Shown here: positions 26,738 through 34,861 of the stretch, piece after piece | Numbering within the stretch: position 1 is the first letter of the stretch | Layout: each line of letters starts with the position of its first letter | Translations under genes and position numbers: made by a program | DNA from: Planctomycetota bacterium | GTDB taxonomy: Bacteria; Planctomycetota; Phycisphaerae; Phycisphaerales; UBA1924 | DNA: 64,000 bases | Direction of reading: 5' to 3' | Assembly (NCBI GenBank): GCA_039819165.1 | Contig: JBCBSM010000001.1 | Coordinates: 1,984,001-2,048,000 of the forward strand | The notes under the pieces: generated by a model | The model's database searches: none | What the model was told of the DNA's origin: nothing | The model's input: only the letters and a program-made list of their open reading frames with translations

Positions 26738-27631
26738 TCAGCCGATCCCCCGCGTCAGGCTCACCGCCGGGTACAGCCCCGCGACCCGCTCCCGGGGCTC
26801 GACCCGTGGGGCGTAGCGGCTGTTGAGCGGCTGCAGCCGGATGAGCTCCTCGCCGCCGCCACCCCGCTCGAAGTAGACCCGCTTGAAGGTCGTCTCGTGG
26901 TCCGGTTCGAGCCTCGCGAAGCAGTCCATGCCGTCCTTGACGTCGCGGGCCGGGCTGAAGATGACCACGTCGCCCTCCACATACTGCGGCTCCATGCTGT
27001 CGCCGGTGATGCGGGCCGCAAAGGCGTCGGGGTCGGCCAGGTCGGGCGACTGCACGTACGCGTCCGCCACGCGGGCGGGGTAGCCTAGATCGGTGAACTC
27101 GCTGGCCTCCCCCGCGGGCACGAGGTTGATCAGCGGCACCACGCCGGGCAGCAATGCACGAACGGGTGCGCCGCCCTCGGCGTCGGCCGCGGCCCCTCCG
27201 CCGGCCGGCCCGAGCCGCTCGACCAGCCGCTGCAAGGCGCCGCTCTGGTAGGCATCGTCGAGCCCGCCGGGGCCCGCAGACTGCAGCAGCGAGGCGAGCT
27301 GGCGGGCGGCCTCGGCCTGGCGACGCCGCTCGGCCAGCTCCTCGCGCAGCTCGATGGGCGTCGCCTCCATCGCCGCCACCGCCGACAGCGTGCCCGCCGC
27401 CAGCTCGAGCGCCGCCTCCAGCCGCGCCATGAGCTTGGGGCCCGGCGCCCCGCGCATGCCCCGCTCGAGCAGCGAGAGGTAGCCCTTGGTGCAGCGGGCC
27501 CGCTCGGCGGTCTCGCGCAAACTCAGCCCCATCCGTAAACGGCGATCGCGGACGATCGTGCCGAACGCCGGCGGCTGCCGATCGATCCTGGTTGCGATCT
27601 CGTCGTCCTGCCGGGCCTGCCGTGCGGTCAT
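26738..27631 (-). CDS. LexA/CI-like repressor: XRE helix-turn-helix plus S24 peptidase domain
   Basis: A 297-residue repressor. Residues about 23-65 are an XRE HTH (RRLRMGLSLRETAERARC then TKGYLSLLERG). An Ala/Glu/Arg-rich helical linker leads to an S24 LexA-type peptidase: NLVPAGEASEF holds an Ala-Gly like the LexA cleavage site (about 172), RITGDSMEP the nucleophile Ser (about 211) and FKRVYFE the base Lys (about 248). Ser-to-Lys spacing of 37 equals that of LexA. Such proteins cleave themselves when RecA is activated by DNA damage, which lifts repression. The gene faces the terminase operon across an AT-rich gap, as expected for its controller. An upstream in-frame ATG at 27682 is possible. 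Confidence 0.87.
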   Translation of the reverse strand: MTARQARQDDEIATRIDRQPPAFGTIVRDRRLRMGLSLRETAERARCTKGYLSLLERGMRGAPGPKLMARLEAALELAAGTLSAVAAMEATPIELREELAERRRQAEAARQLASLLQSAGPGGLDDAYQSGALQRLVERLGPAGGGAAADAEGGAPVRALLPGVVPLINLVPAGEASEFTDLGYPARVADAYVQSPDLADPDAFAARITGDSMEPQYVEGDVVIFSPARDVKDGMDCFARLEPDHETTFKRVYFERGGGGEELIRLQPLNSRYAPRVEPRERVAGLYPAVSLTRGIG

Positions 27632-27689
27632 GCGTAGGCACCTATCCCACGAAGAGGGGAGCCAATCGAGGCCGAGCACCATGCCCCGC

Positions 27690-27790
27690 GCACGACGACC
27701 CCCGCGGTGCGCCATTGGGTGGCTATACCATACATTAGCCTTGCAATTGTTTTCAAGCTAGTCGACAATATGGCCGCCAATCGAGCATGT
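27690..27790. promoter_or_regulatory. AT-rich divergent control region of the terminase cassette
   Basis: This is one of the most AT-rich patches in the window and lies between the repressor and the rightward operon. It holds the inverted repeat ATTGT (27746-27750) / ACAAT (27765-27769) centred at 27757.5, a candidate operator half-site pair. Leftward, TTGAAA and TATGGT are spaced about 18 bases and could form a promoter for the repressor. A rightward promoter probably overlaps the repeat. Exact elements are guesses from sequence. Confidence 0.45.
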
Positions 27791-27848
27791 CAGTAAACGA
27801 TGGGCCCCTCGTAGGGTCCGCCACCCGACATCGAACAGGAGTACGTCC

Positions 27849-28277
27849 GTGGCCACGAGGACCGAAGATCCCACCCTCGACCTGCGGCGGAAGCGCCGCC
27901 GCGCACTGGTCGCCCAGATCGTCGATGCCAGCGAGCATCTGCCCGAGCAGGAACGCCAGCTGCTCCTGGCCGTCTACGGCCGGGGCATGCGGGTCAGCGA
28001 GGTCGCGGTCATGCTGGGCGTGCCCGAGCGACGCCTCCGCCGCCGCGTGCGGGCGCTGCTCAAGCGGGTGACCGATCCGGCCTTCGCCGCCGTCGTCCGC
28101 CACGGATCGAGCTGGCCTCGGCAGCTCCACGCCGTCGCGCGGCTGGCGGTCATCGAGGGCCTGCCCATGCGGGTCATCGCCAGCCGGCTGGGCCTGAGCT
28201 ACCACCAGGTCCGCCAGCACTGCGCGACGATGCACACGCTGGTCGCGGCCCTGCCGGGCCGGGAGACGGCGGCGTGA
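27849..28277 (+). CDS. double helix-turn-helix DNA-binding protein (first gene of terminase operon)
   Basis: A 142-residue basic protein with two HTH units. The first (QERQLLLAVYGRGMRVSEVA, then GVPERRLRRRVRALL) reads like sigma-70 region 4. The second (LAVIEGLPMRVIASRLGLSY, then HQVRQHCATMH) is another HTH. No sigma region 2 is present, so it is not a full sigma factor. Its place directly before an ATPase and the large terminase makes it a candidate small-terminase-like DNA recogniser or an operon regulator; neither is shown. GTG start with AGGAG 7-8 bases upstream. Stop overlaps the next start (GTGA). Confidence 0.75.
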   Translation: MATRTEDPTLDLRRKRRRALVAQIVDASEHLPEQERQLLLAVYGRGMRVSEVAVMLGVPERRLRRRVRALLKRVTDPAFAAVVRHGSSWPRQLHAVARLAVIEGLPMRVIASRLGLSYHQVRQHCATMHTLVAALPGRETAA

Positions 28278-29011
28278 TCGACCGCGCGACCAGGGCGGCC
28301 GCCCTCTTCGGCCTGCCGATGCACCACCAGCACGATCCCGTGCGGTGGTCGGCGCTCCGCATGGCCTGCGCCGCCGCCCGCGCCCTGCACGCCGACGCGG
28401 CGCCCGGGCGGATCCTCATGCTCGCCGGCCCCAGCGGCGGCGGCAAGTCGACCGCGCTCGCGCTGCTCGGCCGTCGGCTGGCGCGGCAGCGGCGCGCCGT
28501 CGTCCGGCCGCCCGCGCACCTGCCCCGCCGCCGACCGGCCATCGACGCCGTCGGCGACAGCTTCGAGCGGGCGCTGGGCGTGCTCGCCGCCGCGGGCCTC
28601 GCCGAGGCGGCGCTTCTGGCGCGGCCCGCGGGCGCGCTCAGCGACGGCCAGCGGGCGCGGCTGCGGATCGCCGCCGGCATGGACCGCTGCACGCCCGGCG
28701 CCGCCCTGCTCATCGACGAGTTCGCCGCCGAGCTCGATCGCGCCACCGCCTGCTCGCTGGCCTGCGCCCTGGCACGGTGGGCCCGACGCGAGGTGATCAC
28801 GCTCGTGGTGGCCACGACGCGGGACGACCTGCTCGAGTCGCTCGGGCCCGACGTGCTGGCCATCCTGCCGCTGCCCGGCGAGACGTCCGAGCCCCCCGCG
28901 ATCCTCCGACGCGCCCGGCTTCGCCCCCGCGGAGCACCGCCGTGGCATGCGACGCGCTGCAACGACGATTCGCCGCCCTCGACGACCACCGACCACGCGA
29001 TCACGCGATAG
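28274..29011 (+). CDS. ABC-type ATPase of the COG2401-like kind
   Basis: A 245-residue soluble ATPase. Walker A is AGPSGGGKST (about 51-60), the signature LSDGQRARL (about 121-129), Walker B ALLIDEFAAELD (about 145-156), and LVVATTRDDLLESLGPDVLAIL follows with a Thr in place of the usual switch His. No membrane partner is present. This matches, from memory, the ATPase half of COG2401, proteins in which an ABC ATPase is fused to an acetyltransferase. Here the acetyltransferase is a separate, overlapping gene. GTG start overlaps the upstream stop; GGGAG lies 8-9 bases before it. The role in the cassette is unknown; DNA remodelling or energising packaging is possible. Confidence 0.82.
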   Translation: MIDRATRAAALFGLPMHHQHDPVRWSALRMACAAARALHADAAPGRILMLAGPSGGGKSTALALLGRRLARQRRAVVRPPAHLPRRRPAIDAVGDSFERALGVLAAAGLAEAALLARPAGALSDGQRARLRIAAGMDRCTPGAALLIDEFAAELDRATACSLACALARWARREVITLVVATTRDDLLESLGPDVLAILPLPGETSEPPAILRRARLRPRGAPPWHATRCNDDSPPSTTTDHAITR

Positions 29012-29652
29012 CGATCGAAACCGGCGACGCCGCCGACCTGCGGGCCCTCGCGCGCTTCCACTACGCCGCCCGCAGGCCCGGGCCGATCGCCCGCGTGCTG
29101 CGCGCCGCCGACGCCGATGGCGAGCTCGCCGGCGTGCTGGTCGCGAGCATGCCGACGCTCAACGACCGCTGGCGGTCGATCGCCTGGCCCGGCGAGTACG
29201 ACCACGCCGACCAGCGCACGCGGGCGGAGGCGATCAACGCCGATCTGCGGCTGATCTCCCGCGTCATCGTCGACCCGCGGTACCGCGGGCGGGGCGTCGC
29301 GGTGCGGCTCGTGCGGGCGTACCTGGCCGACCCCTGCACGCGGCGGACCGAGGCAATCGCCGCCATGGCGCACGCGTGCCCCTTCTTCGCGCGCGCGGGC
29401 ATGCGTCCGATCCCACTCGAACCAAGCCAAGCGGATCGGCGGCTCGCGCGGGTACTCGGACGCCGGGGCGTCGACGCCGAATCGCTCGCGGTCGGCGGCA
29501 TTGACGATCCGCGTCTGCACGTCGCACTCGGGGCGTGGGCCCGGGCTCGGCGTCTCGCGGAGCGCTCGCCCGAGCGGCTGGCGATGCGCGCGTACGCGGC
29601 GCTGGCGTACCCGCCCATCGCCTTCGTGCACGATGCGGGAGCCCGCCCGTGA
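28942..29652 (+). CDS. GNAT acetyltransferase of the terminase cassette
   Basis: A 236-residue GNAT-fold protein. ISRVIVDPRYRGRGVAVRLV (about residues 104-123) is the acetyl-CoA-binding strand and pyrophosphate loop. The following IAAMAHACPFFARAGM completes the fold. The C-terminal 70 residues are Arg/Ala-rich helix. The GTG at 28942 is chosen since GGAG stands 8 bases before it; this makes the gene overlap the ATPase gene by 70 bases in another frame. The partner fusion known as COG2401 supports a joint function with the ATPase. The substrate may be a protein or small molecule; it cannot be read. Confidence 0.8.
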   Translation: MACDALQRRFAALDDHRPRDHAIAIETGDAADLRALARFHYAARRPGPIARVLRAADADGELAGVLVASMPTLNDRWRSIAWPGEYDHADQRTRAEAINADLRLISRVIVDPRYRGRGVAVRLVRAYLADPCTRRTEAIAAMAHACPFFARAGMRPIPLEPSQADRRLARVLGRRGVDAESLAVGGIDDPRLHVALGAWARARRLAERSPERLAMRAYAALAYPPIAFVHDAGARP

Positions 29653-31157
29653 CGCCGCTGCCGCCCCGGCCCGAGACCGTGGAGCAACTGGCGGGGGTCG
29701 TGCGCGACCTGCTGGGCGTGCGGCCCGCGTCGGTCCCGCTGATCAAGGGGCACTCTGCGCCGATGGACTACCTCGCGCACGCGTTCTTCGCCGACCATGC
29801 GCCGCACGCGATTGGCCTCGCACCGGACGACGCGGTCGACGGCGTGGTGTGGGCCAATCGCGGCGGGGGCAAGACCTTCCTGGGCGCGGCCGCCACGCTG
29901 CTGGACATGCTCTACAAGCCCGGCATCGAGATCCGCATCCTGGGCGGCTCGCTCGAGCAGGCGCAGCGGATGCACGCGCACCTGCGCGGCTTCCTGGCGA
30001 TCCCCCAGCTCGCCGCACTGGTCGATGGCCGGGTCACCGATCGCCGCGTCGCGCTCGCCAACGGCTCGAGGCTCGAACTGCTCGCACAGTCGCAGGCGTC
30101 GGTCCGCGGCACCCGCGTGCAGAAGCTCCGCTGCGACGAGGTCGAGCTGTTCGATCCGGCGGTGTGGGAGGCTGCGCAGCTCACGACGCGGTCGCGGACG
30201 GTCGAGACCGACGACGGCCCGCTGCACGTCCGCGGCACGATCGAGGCGCTCAGCACGATGCACCGCGCCCACGGACTCATGCGCGACCTGATCGATCAGG
30301 CATCCAACGGCTCGCGGCGGCTGTTCAAGTGGGGGGTGGTCGACGTGCTCGACGCCTGCGGACCCGAGCACGCGTGCCGGCGGGACGACGGCTCGACCTG
30401 CCCGCTGTGGAACGAGTGCGGCGGCCTTGCAAAGACGCGCGACGCCCGGGGCGAGCCGGCGGGGCACCTGAGCGTGGCCGACGCGATCGCGCTCAAGGGC
30501 CGCGTGTCGCTCTCGACATGGTCGGCCGAGATGGCGTGCAACCGCCCCAAGCTCGACGACCTGGTGCTGCCCGAGTTCGACGCGAGCGAGCACGTGCGTC
30601 CGCTGCCGGCCGACGCCACCGACGAGGACGCGGGCTGGACGTGGGTGCTGGGGATGGACTTTGGCTATCGCTCGCCCACGGTGGTGCTGTGGGCTGCGGT
30701 GTCGCCCGAGGACACCGTGCACGTGGCGGACGAGCGGATCGCCAGCCGGCGGCTGCTGGGCGAGCACGTCGACGCCATCCTCGACGCGCCATGGCCCGCG
30801 GCGGCGTGGATCGGCATCGACCCCGCGGGCTGGCAGGGCAACGCCCAGACCGGGCTGAGCGACGCCCAGCAGCTCGGCCGAGCGGGGCTGACGGTGCGCT
30901 CGCGGCGGATGCCCGTGCGGCGGGGGCTCGATCTGCTCCGCACCCGGCTGCGGCCCGCGGACGGCCCGCCCACGCTGTTCATCGATCCCGCATGCACGCA
31001 GCTGATCGAGTCGCTCGAGCGGTACCACTACGACGAGCAGCGGCCGCTGAGCGAGGAGCCGGCCAAGGACGGCCCGGACCACGCCGTGGATGCACTGCGG
31101 TACCTGGTGACCAACCTCGATCGGCCGGGCACGCTGAACGCGGGGAGCTATCTATAG
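29649..31157 (+). CDS. terL: phage-type terminase large subunit
   Basis: A 502-residue large-terminase protein, the motor that pumps DNA into phage procapsids and cuts it. The ATPase half has Walker A WANRGGGKTF (about 68-78) and Walker B KLRCDEVELF (about 159-168). The nuclease half has the RNase H-like acids: LGMDFGYRSP (about 336), GIDPAGW (about 389) and DGPDHAVDALRYLV (about 474-487). All motifs look intact. A Cys-rich insert (CGPEHACRRDD ... CPLWNECGG) between the halves could bind metal. The GTG start overlaps the GNAT stop (GTGA). No portal, protease, capsid or tail gene follows; the next gene is a leftward secreted protein. The intact motifs argue against decay. Confidence 0.88.
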   Translation: MTPLPPRPETVEQLAGVVRDLLGVRPASVPLIKGHSAPMDYLAHAFFADHAPHAIGLAPDDAVDGVVWANRGGGKTFLGAAATLLDMLYKPGIEIRILGGSLEQAQRMHAHLRGFLAIPQLAALVDGRVTDRRVALANGSRLELLAQSQASVRGTRVQKLRCDEVELFDPAVWEAAQLTTRSRTVETDDGPLHVRGTIEALSTMHRAHGLMRDLIDQASNGSRRLFKWGVVDVLDACGPEHACRRDDGSTCPLWNECGGLAKTRDARGEPAGHLSVADAIALKGRVSLSTWSAEMACNRPKLDDLVLPEFDASEHVRPLPADATDEDAGWTWVLGMDFGYRSPTVVLWAAVSPEDTVHVADERIASRRLLGEHVDAILDAPWPAAAWIGIDPAGWQGNAQTGLSDAQQLGRAGLTVRSRRMPVRRGLDLLRTRLRPADGPPTLFIDPACTQLIESLERYHYDEQRPLSEEPAKDGPDHAVDALRYLVTNLDRPGTLNAGSYL

Positions 31158-32662: not shown

Positions 32663-33010
32663 GGTCATCTCCTCGTGTGGGTGCTCGGGGATGGCGTACC
32701 GATTACGCGAGACGCGGACGCCTGCCATCGACGTTCGCGCAACCCGCCGCCGCTGGCGGATTTGCTCGACCTACGCGGGATATCTCTGCTCTCGCACTCG
32801 CGAGGACAACATTAGACGGCGGGCCCTGCGCATCGGCTTTGGACGATGCAAAGAGATGTTTAAGATTGCGCGAAGGGCTGCGTGGTTGCCCGCATCGGCG
32901 GTAGACGATCGACGCTTCCCAACTATGCTTGCGTCACGACGCTGTAGAGCCAGCCCCGCCGGTGGCAAGGGGCCGACCGTACACCAACCATGAGACACGC
33001 AGGAGGCGAC
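32663..33010. other. 348-base intergenic region between divergent genes
   Basis: No gene seen. The middle (about 32790-32940) is less GC-rich than its surroundings and should hold the divergent promoters of the propeller and prepilin genes. TATGCT at 32924-32929 is a possible rightward -10 element. No convincing -35, riboswitch or repeat was found. Confidence 0.5.
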
Positions 33011-33880
33011 ATGCAGAGCCGCGGGGAACGTGCATTCACGCTCATCGAATTGCTCGTGGTCATCGCGATCATCGCGCTGCTCCTCGGCATCCTGCTGCCG
33101 TCGCTGGGCGGTGCGCGCGAGGCCGCCAAGAAGGTGCAGTGCCAGAGCCAGATGAAGCAGATCTACACCGCTTGGTTCGGCTACGCCACCGACAACGACG
33201 AGTACCACCACGGAAGCCGCCAGAACTTCTCCTCACGCATGGTGCAGCTCGACTCGGATCGAAACTATCTGCTGCCCTACTACGAGGACTGGGATGCCTC
33301 GCTGCCGCTCGGCCGGGGGAGCTACTGGGGCGCCCTGTACGACAGCTACCTCGGCGTCGACATCAAGCGCGAGTTCTTCGAGCGCGAGGTGGGCATCGGC
33401 AATCGCACGCTGCTGCCCGGCTGGGAAGTCTGGGCGTGCCCCGCCGCCCGTGAGATCGATCAGTACACCCCGGCGGGCCGGGACCAGCCGGGCCAGTTCG
33501 AGTTCGCCACCATGTGCTTCAACGGCGTGTTCCTGGATCGTGCGCAGCCCCGCAGCGGCAGCGCCTTCTTCAAGCCGGGCAACGACTACAACGCCGGGCG
33601 GCCCAAGCGCATCACCACCGTGCAGTACCCCAGCAACACCATCGTCTTCCAGGACGGCTACGAGCAGATGCTCGACGGCAACGGCGACACGCTCAACGAC
33701 CTGCGGCAGCACGGCGACCGGGAGAACGCCGAGTACTTCCGCCACGGCGGGGGCTGCAACACCTGCTGGCTCGACGGCAGCATCCGAGAGATCGCCCAGG
33801 CCGAGATGGACGACACCCTCCCTTGGTACCGCGGCCAGTACGAGCCCGAGGACACCCGGGGCGGCGGCCGACCCCGGTAA
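33011..33880 (+). CDS. prepilin-type protein, tandem copy 1
   Basis: A 289-residue pilin-like protein: leader [19 protein letters not shown], hydrophobic helix, then a globular domain with conserved Cys ([36 protein letters not shown]). Cleavage would fall after Ala rather than Gly before the Phe, which is less usual. The ATG at 33011 has AGGAGG 4 bases upstream; the ATG at 32990 would only add seven residues. The next gene is a close paralogue: residues 20-80 and the last 80 are nearly identical, and stretches of more than 100 bases match at DNA level. The pair is therefore a recent duplication or under gene conversion. Confidence 0.87.
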
Positions 33881-33991: not shown

Positions 33992-34861
33992 ATGCCGAGC
34001 CGCAAGACTGCAACGAGCCGCGCGTTCACGCTCATCGAGCTCCTGGTCGTCATCGCGATCATCGCGCTGCTGATTGGCATCCTGCTGCCGTCCCTTGGTG
34101 GCGCGCGCGAAGCCGCCAAGAAGGTGCAGTGCCAGAGCCAGATGAAGCAGATCTACACCGCTTGGTTCGGCTACGCCACCGACAACGACGAGTACCACCA
34201 CGGAAGCCGCCAGAACTTCTCCTCACGCATGATCGAGCGTGGCCGGCCCAGCCGCAACGTGCTGCTGCCCTACTACGAGGACTGGGACCCCACCCTGCCG
34301 GGCGGCGAGGGGACCTACTGGGGGGCGCTCTACGACGATTACCTCGGCGTCCAGACTAACGAGCGGTTCTTCGACCCCGAGGTGGGCATCGGCGCCCGCA
34401 CGCAGCTCTCGGGCTGGGACGTCTGGGCCTGCCCATCCGCCGACTTGATCGACCGCTACACCCGTGCGGGGCGCGGCTCGGAGGGCAACTTCGACTTCGC
34501 GACCTTCTGCTTTAATGGCGTCTTCCGCGACACGCTGGGCGCCAGCGATAGCGCGTTCTTCAAGACCGGCGGATACAACAATCCACGGCCCAAGCGGATC
34601 ACGACGGTCCAGTACCCGAGCACGACCATCGTCTTCCAGGACGGCTACGAGCAGATGCTCGACGGCAACGGCGACACGCTCAACGATCTCTTCCAGCACG
34701 GCGACAAGGAGAACGCCGAGTACTTCCGCCACGGCGGGGGCTGCAACACCTGCTGGCTCGACGGCAGCATCCGAGAGATCGTGCAGGCCGAGATCGACGA
34801 CACGCTGCCGTGGTACCGCGGCGAGTTCGAGCCCGAGCGCCGCGGCGGCCGGCCCCGCTAA
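33992..34861 (+). CDS. prepilin-type protein, tandem copy 2
   Basis: A 289-residue paralogue of the preceding gene, starting [20 protein letters not shown]. The conserved helix, the [20 protein letters not shown] segment and the C-terminal [20 protein letters not shown] are shared. The middle (residues about 85-190) has diverged more, as expected if surface-exposed parts adapt separately. GGGAG precedes the ATG by 5-6 bases. The Ala-Phe cleavage junction is the same as in copy 1. The two may form a heteromeric filament or pseudopilus; no assembly ATPase is nearby. Confidence 0.87.

Follow-up and report, generated by a model that had tools for sequence, protein, structure and literature searches.

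According to the available part of PMC9662315, gene transfer agents (GTAs) such as RcGTA, BaGTA and BhGTA have packaging and head genes that derive from caudoviruses and are kept in the host chromosome, often spread over several loci, and they co-diversify with their hosts. The accessible text of PMC11841831 states that GTAs tend to be encoded at multiple loci and that homology, synteny and gene content cannot definitively locate new ones, and the GTAs named in the available parts of these two sources belong to alphaproteobacteria, a spirochete, a sulfate reducer and an archaeon. The accessible portion of PMC7947584 reports an RcGTA-like large terminase (TerL) in a prophage of Zavarzinella (class Planctomycetia). 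Here, we analyzed a stretch of 64,000 nucleotides, hereafter the window, from a Planctomycetota bacterium (GCA_039819165.1, JBCBSM010000001.1, positions 1,984,001 to 2,048,000), which lies on contig C1 of genome G000 (3.14 Mb). The window carries a five-gene cassette coding for an S24 repressor, a double helix-turn-helix protein (HTH2), a small ABC-type ATPase, a GNAT-fold protein and TerL. We propose that this cassette and a distant locus of phage-type head genes probably form a vertically inherited, dispersed, phage-derived and GTA-like particle system of the Phycisphaerae, delivery being the least certain step in the window's family.

The preliminary description of the window had presented the cassette as an orphan without structural genes. 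In the window itself we indeed identified no structural phage gene, the five cassette proteins having been scanned against family libraries and the rest inspected by eye from lists of open reading frames (ORFs). The orphan label did not stand: further along the same contig, 46–50 kb rightward of TerL and about 13–18 kb past the window end, are portal and capsid genes. In the 40 kb read there, seven consecutive minus-strand genes form a head locus whose near end is 45.8 kb from TerL, with the portal gene 49.7 kb from the TerL end (Table 1). Solved capsids were among the profile matches of the capsid protein. One apparent membrane segment was seen by eye in the 106-aa protein, and the genes flanking the locus look cellular by eye; we take them to be those of a ketosynthase, a cation transporter and a Der-type GTPase. 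On sequence grounds, we assign to the cassette the role of motor-and-control locus in a dispersed, phage-derived system of the class Phycisphaerae; it is not an orphan.

We observed matches to the portal family PF05133 in 49 of 61 relatives at E≤0.001 (46 of them above the cut-off), including all seven genomes of the window's genus. A simple gene caller placed the portal, scaffold and capsid genes side by side in 12 of 17 portal loci, among them that of G000; the other five were partly or wholly miscalled or cut, and profiles recovered the portal or the capsid there on six-frame translations. It had been suggested that HK97-type capsid and portal genes be sought elsewhere in the genome. The partners on the same contig turned out to be a PF05133 portal and an SU10-type capsid; HK97-type portals (PF04860, 9/61 relatives) and capsids (PF05065, 6/61), considered as partners, were found in none of the genomes of the window's genus. 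At G034:C12:187655-193110, an HK97-type portal, a capsid and a second TerL match lie together in a prophage-like region distinct from the conserved TerL.

The genes of the two loci occur together across the sampled genomes. Among the 61 relatives, 45 carry both TerL and portal, five TerL only, four portal only and seven neither (Fisher test, 4e-4). In 160 genomes of the class, a strong TerL match (E≤1e-50) and the capsid were found together in 73, TerL only in 15, capsid only in two and neither in 70 (p 1e-27, a value that ignores relatedness); the 73 genomes span 15 family codes by our own reading of the lists. Furthermore, in genome G348 (family f101) a single stretch of about 23 kb holds the genes for S24, HTH2, ABC, an NlpC-like protein (called by eye), GNAT, a TerS-like protein, TerL, portal, scaffold, capsid and tail-like proteins, the apparently intact head genes adjoining the cassette. 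This cluster has cellular-looking flanks and is interrupted by one opposite-strand, cellular-looking hydrolase gene; by eye, we noticed no integrase or replication gene in it, and no dedicated integrase search was run. Shorter contiguous clusters were found in G356, G408 and G449. In G388, no more than 6 kb separates TerL from the capsid gene, and genes on the opposite strand were called in this interval. A further 35 genomes were selected for having both genes on one contig, and there TerL lies 1 to 981 kb from portal or capsid. If the system is a GTA, these forms would give a comparative series, from one cluster (G348) through split loci with tail-like genes (G044, G049) to split loci without recognized ones (the window's family).

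We compared TerL, portal and capsid trees with that of RpoB as the one host gene in 23 genomes that provided all four proteins (trees by FastTree, without weighing of support values; of 30 genomes, seven were left out since TerL, capsid or portal was not fetched or was too short). Patristic distances correlated with those of RpoB for TerL (Mantel r 0.86), portal (0.85) and capsid (0.79), a value reached in 0 of 2000 permutations in each case, and 14, 13 and 7 of 20 splits, respectively, were shared with the RpoB tree. The same-contig head locus, the co-occurrence of TerL and capsid, the joint cluster of G348 and the host-like trees of TerL and portal all argue for the proposal, made in the preliminary description, that the cassette is the control part of a GTA whose capsid genes lie elsewhere.

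Identity of the capsid to named phage records was at most 31.5% among the 15 of 404 matches shown, and below 60% for all 404. TerL matched 86 phage records, two of which were covered to at least 80%, at 23% identity, and a search of plasmids with TerL gave no match. In several of the viral contigs L047-L091 (e.g. L048, L049, L055), the TerL relative appears by eye to be divided between one gene for the ATPase and distinct nuclease-like genes, with ParB-like genes nearby.

The cassette itself recurs in other genomes. A TerL relative (E≤0.001) was detected in 50 of the 61 genomes, G000 included, and in all seven of the window's genus; it was lacking in all six sampled genomes of family f2. The nearest named records with a related TerL are metagenome-assembled genomes of Phycisphaeraceae or Phycisphaerae (L092-L094). 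A search of named genomes gave 318 TerL loci, of which the best 80 were retained; by title, 76 of these 80 belong to Phycisphaerae groups or Planctomycetota, two to cyanobacteria and two to a 'bacterium' only, and a GNAT relative of more than 130 aa is present in 73 of them. In a sample of 294 genomes of the phylum, we obtained 41 TerL matches at 1e-20, those from outside the class being weak (E 6e-37 to 3e-22) and partial.

To compare gene order, we examined 41 loci, namely the window and two sets of 20 stretches around TerL. In 35 of them, HTH2, ABC and GNAT genes are found together upstream of TerL and in its orientation; 30 of these also have the divergent S24 gene. HTH2, counted by itself, is upstream of TerL in 36. 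The five-gene order thus recurs, and absence of the cassette from relatives, which the preliminary description had named as refuting its reading, was not observed. No degraded phage genes were seen beside the cassette in close relatives, where neighbors were not scanned against phage families. The six loci outside these 35 comprise four of family f9 (L204-L207), with TerL and no cassette, and two partial ones (L213, L218). Among 19 loci from outside family f1, 14 have a ParB-like gene and a short gene at the position of a small terminase inserted between GNAT and TerL, although L213 retains no more than a ParB remnant. Of the 22 loci of family f1, nine have short ParB remnants and three have the TerS-like gene. 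ParB-like genes matched PF02195 at 2e-5 and 7e-4 in two examples, under the Pfam cut-off, and the label TerS-like denotes position and size only, a Pfam scan of this gene having given no match. Directly downstream of TerL, 12 of the 41 loci, from families f1, f4 and f5, have a gene for the same 86-aa membrane protein; in L028, this gene and a second shared neighbor are located on the opposite side. The chromosomal place of the cassette is common to these families in those 12 loci, which do not include the window or its genus; left-hand neighbors of the window's genus are common within the genus only.

The coding sequences bear marks of constraint. An alignment of 17 TerL sequences shows no variation at the Walker A lysine, the DE pair, the nuclease acidic residues or four cysteines, in agreement with the complete TerL with ATPase and nuclease motifs described earlier; the names Walker A, Walker B and nuclease acidic residues are our own presumptive assignments. 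In the window's TerL, the four cysteines (237, 243, 251 and 257) lie between the ATPase and nuclease domains and may be a metal site. Likewise, Ala201-Gly202, Ser240 and Lys278 of the repressor are invariant in 14 aligned sequences; in S24/LexA proteins these are the cleavage site and the catalytic dyad. Nonsynonymous substitution rates (dN) were below synonymous rates (dS) by the NG86 method in every computed pair within the window's genus for TerL, GNAT, ABC, capsid, portal, scaffold and the 211-aa protein, with three to six genomes per gene and dS probably underestimated at this GC content. For TerL, for which this comparison had been called for, dN/dS ratios ranged from about 0.08 to 0.41. 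Substitution patterns thus indicate that both loci are under purifying selection in the window's genus. Taken together, our sequence comparisons establish that the two loci co-occur, are united in a single cluster in some families, diversify together with the host and mostly retain intact frames and motifs.

Three of the six GTA properties given in the available part of PMC9662315 could be recognized from sequence. Phage-type TerL, portal and capsid genes are present (profile matches in Table 1), the system being known from its genes; the genes are distributed over the two loci of G000, a dispersal that would make full self-packaging unlikely; and vertical inheritance with co-diversification is indicated by the Mantel correlations, the capsid being weakest. 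The other three properties given there are a cargo of mostly random host DNA, incomplete or no packaging of the agent's own genome owing to head size, and delivery of the packaged DNA to other cells. We therefore regard the system as a candidate GTA, and do not file it as a GTA. It resembles RcGTA, BaGTA and BhGTA in the features given at the outset; it differs from them in its SU10-type capsid, SPP1-type portal, own S24 repressor and HTH2 and ABC-GNAT pair, no RcGTA protein having been compared directly, and recognized tail-like genes were not found in the window's family. With SU10-like and SPP1-portal phages it shares the capsid (PF17236/phrog_1328) and portal (PF05133/phrog_104) families, but its genes are dispersed and host-congruent, and in the loci read we noticed nothing for replication or integration next to the head genes. 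Capsid-forming phage-inducible chromosomal islands have their own head and packaging genes without tail genes; the present system, in contrast, is inherited with the host across the class, and neither integrase nor island boundaries were noticed. Attachment sites, too, were not noticed by eye in the G348 cluster, and ARAGORN found no tRNA in the window. In the literature covered, from which most subscription papers and preprints were outside scope, we found no description of a GTA or terminase system of Phycisphaerae or Planctomycetota, and no such system is described in the available parts of PMC13055281, PMC12213060, PMC8597652, PMC11694666 and PMC7947584. The lineage is a candidate for an undescribed one, a literature negative being no proof of novelty.

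S24 repressors self-cleave on RecA filaments, and TerL pumps DNA through the portal into the head. In the mechanism that we propose, the S24 repressor would keep the divergent operon silent from the block at 27740-27756 and cleave itself after a RecA-type signal; HTH2 would then turn on the portal-capsid operon, and the portal, scaffold and SU10-type capsid proteins would assemble into a head. TerL would then load this head. Sequence preference in this step would probably be low, since ParB and TerS-like genes are for the most part missing from the window's family. Finally, particles would exit the cell and deliver DNA as a GTA, the step of which we are least sure for this family. According to the accessible portion of PMC7947584, the RcGTA small terminase binds DNA weakly and non-specifically, and loss of TerS and ParB would fit such unspecific packaging. 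We hold only tentatively a more specific version, in which an independently domesticated GTA lineage dates from the base of the Phycisphaerae and the window's family has a tail-less, damage-controlled form that loads chromosomal DNA without TerS, ParB or known tails, using the ABC-GNAT pair.

Several observations weigh against the GTA-like reading. In other families, the head genes are followed by tail523, which has no family match, and by a tail-collar-like protein (phrog_31611, 7e-6), found in 8 and 9 of the 61 relatives, respectively; neither was found in the 37 sampled genomes of the window's family, which leaves adsorption unexplained there. Either other proteins replace the two in this family, or its heads are tailless. 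A PHROG scan of p141, p127, the 211-aa protein and tail523 gave no convincing match, and no lysis gene was found among the proteins scanned, no genome-wide search having been made. The portal gene of G004 is broken in two: one piece (L276 10062-10604) corresponds to residues 310-485 of the G003 protein and the other (L277 8736-9755) to residues 1-311, and about 67 kb of a single contig separates them, the result of either rearrangement or misassembly. In-frame stops interrupt TerL in G045 and G445; G414 and G395 each have two TerL matches, one of which contains a stop. The four f9 loci with TerL and no cassette, the 15 of 160 genomes with TerL and no capsid and the four of 61 with portal and no TerL also count here, many of the genomes being drafts. 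The link from S24 through HTH2 to the head operon is a proposed one, and no operator common to the two loci was found. Moreover, the capsid tree is the least congruent with the host, and four viral contigs (L332, L333, L334, L336) carry capsids 48-63% identical; L334, in which the structural order is complete, may be of bacterial origin, and the other three are phage-like by their other genes, as judged by eye. The low agreement of the capsid tree and these related capsids suggest that capsids may have been exchanged with phages.

Some of these observations would also be expected if the loci were remnants of prophages or phage satellites, decaying or occasionally active mobile elements that are common in the class by chance. 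The split portal of G004, the few TerLs with stops and the SU10-like capsids of viral contigs fit this explanation, as do the PF04860 portals and PF05065 capsids of some relatives, which probably belong to true prophages. We nevertheless consider it quite unlikely, since the TerL and portal trees resemble that of the host, one neighbor gene is common to 12 of the 41 loci across three families, most frames are intact with dN below dS in the window's genus, TerL and head genes lie kilobases to hundreds of kilobases apart in many genomes and no integrase was noticed in the G348 cluster. A prophage would be expected as one locus of patchy distribution; here two loci are present in all seven genomes of the genus and are host-congruent, no search for integration or lysis genes having been made.

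That neither tail523 nor collar genes were found in the 37 genomes of the window's family, which kept the head and motor genes and the damage-type repressor and mostly lost ParB and TerS-like genes, is also what one would see if this family packaged DNA into tailless heads for a role other than transfer (for instance, to sequester or destroy DNA after damage, or to serve as an intracellular compartment), or borrowed its tails from infecting phages. However, p141, p127 and the 106-aa protein could be unrecognized neck or tail proteins, tail genes could lie elsewhere and nothing directly supports another function, which makes this alternative unlikely. A defense or stress nuclease, in which invading or damaged DNA is the target of TerL, ABC and GNAT and the presence of the capsid locus is coincidental, would account for the intact motor and nuclease motifs of TerL and for the damage-responsive type of repressor. 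Yet TerL co-occurs with the capsid and forms one cluster with it in G348, and in PADLOC-DB 2.0.0 the matches of the repressor, HTH and ABC proteins were partial and generic, GNAT and TerL had none and no known anti-phage defense family was matched in full length; we therefore regard this explanation as highly improbable. Nothing was found specifically in favor of the defense and phage-helper roles entertained in the preliminary description. We thus retain the dispersed, GTA-like particle system as the preferred reading. If it holds, a class-wide, host-congruent GTA of Planctomycetota with an SU10-type capsid would represent a further domestication. The series of one-cluster and split forms would then allow tests of which components are indispensable to a domesticated particle and of how the loss of TerS and ParB affects packaging specificity.

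Table 1. Features of the cassette (positions in the window) and of the head locus (C1, contig coordinates) in G000.
Feature	Position	Strand	Properties
S24 repressor (XRE-S24, self-cleaving type)	26738..27715	-	325-aa ORF, conserved part from about residue 50; PF00717 1.5e-14, PF01381 1e-6
Divergent control region, candidate operator/promoter	27716..27848	.	AT-rich block with CTTGCAATTGTTTTCAA at 27740-27756; putative function
Double helix-turn-helix protein (HTH2), candidate activator	27849..28277	+	sigma-70 region-4-like; PF08281 2.2e-11, TIGR02937
Small ABC-type ATPase	28274..29011	+	PF00005 28.7 bits, phrog_293 2e-17
GNAT-fold protein	~28942..29652 (presumed start)	+	PF13673 25.4 bits, phrog_886 1e-12
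Complete large terminase TerL	29649..31157	+	PF17289 22.8 bits (cut-off 22.6), phrog_2 5e-17; ATPase and nuclease motifs, four-cysteine cluster
Portal (SPP1-type)	C1:2064813-2066258	-	481 aa; PF05133 1.5e-10, phrog_104 2.6e-18
Scaffold-like protein	head locus	-	168 aa; PF06810 8.8e-6, below cut-off
Major capsid protein, SU10-type	head locus	-	392 aa; PF17236 (SU10_MCP) 3.3e-89, phrog_1328 1e-74
Four small proteins	head locus	-	211, 141 (p141), 127 (p127) and 106 aa; without clear family

All five cassette genes were present with profile matches, and their arrangement, the repressor facing an overlapping rightward operon, was as first described. Of the three overlaps reported, two are GTGA stop/start overlaps, at 28274-28277 (HTH2/ABC) and 29649-29652 (GNAT/TerL), and one is an ABC/GNAT frame overlap of about 70 bp. 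The PF03237 profile gave no match to the window's own TerL. In five loci (L028, L030, L032, L035, L039), ABC and GNAT form one reading frame. This recalls the ABC-GNAT fusion that we presume to be COG2401-like, from which the window differs in having two overlapping genes; a search for such a fusion in phages gave no match. The structure model of the GNAT protein (pLDDT 93) resembles many GNATs, which are generic acetyltransferases, and its third-ranked match among viral models was a Mom protein, a resemblance too weak for assignment.

In the control regions, a block similar to the AT-rich one in the repressor gap was found in five genomes of the window's genus. In G000, the block at 27740-27756 is the sole site at up to three mismatches. 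An operator common to both loci was sought and rejected, the extra three-mismatch sites of G003 and G004 being at control level. Upstream of the portal, GCGCGCA/TGCGCGC occurs within 220 bp in 13 of 24 genomes versus 25 of 567 other upstream regions of the same loci; the motif was picked after inspection, is missing in 11 of the 24 (GC-rich ones among these) and serves as a lead only. Examples are L270 (G445), L250 (G040) and L258 (G348).

For window ORFs outside the cassette, the simple gene caller performed poorly. To the right of the cassette, at 32990-33880 and 33992-34861, two adjacent, closely similar genes with a pseudopilin-like N-terminus apparently represent a tandem duplication.

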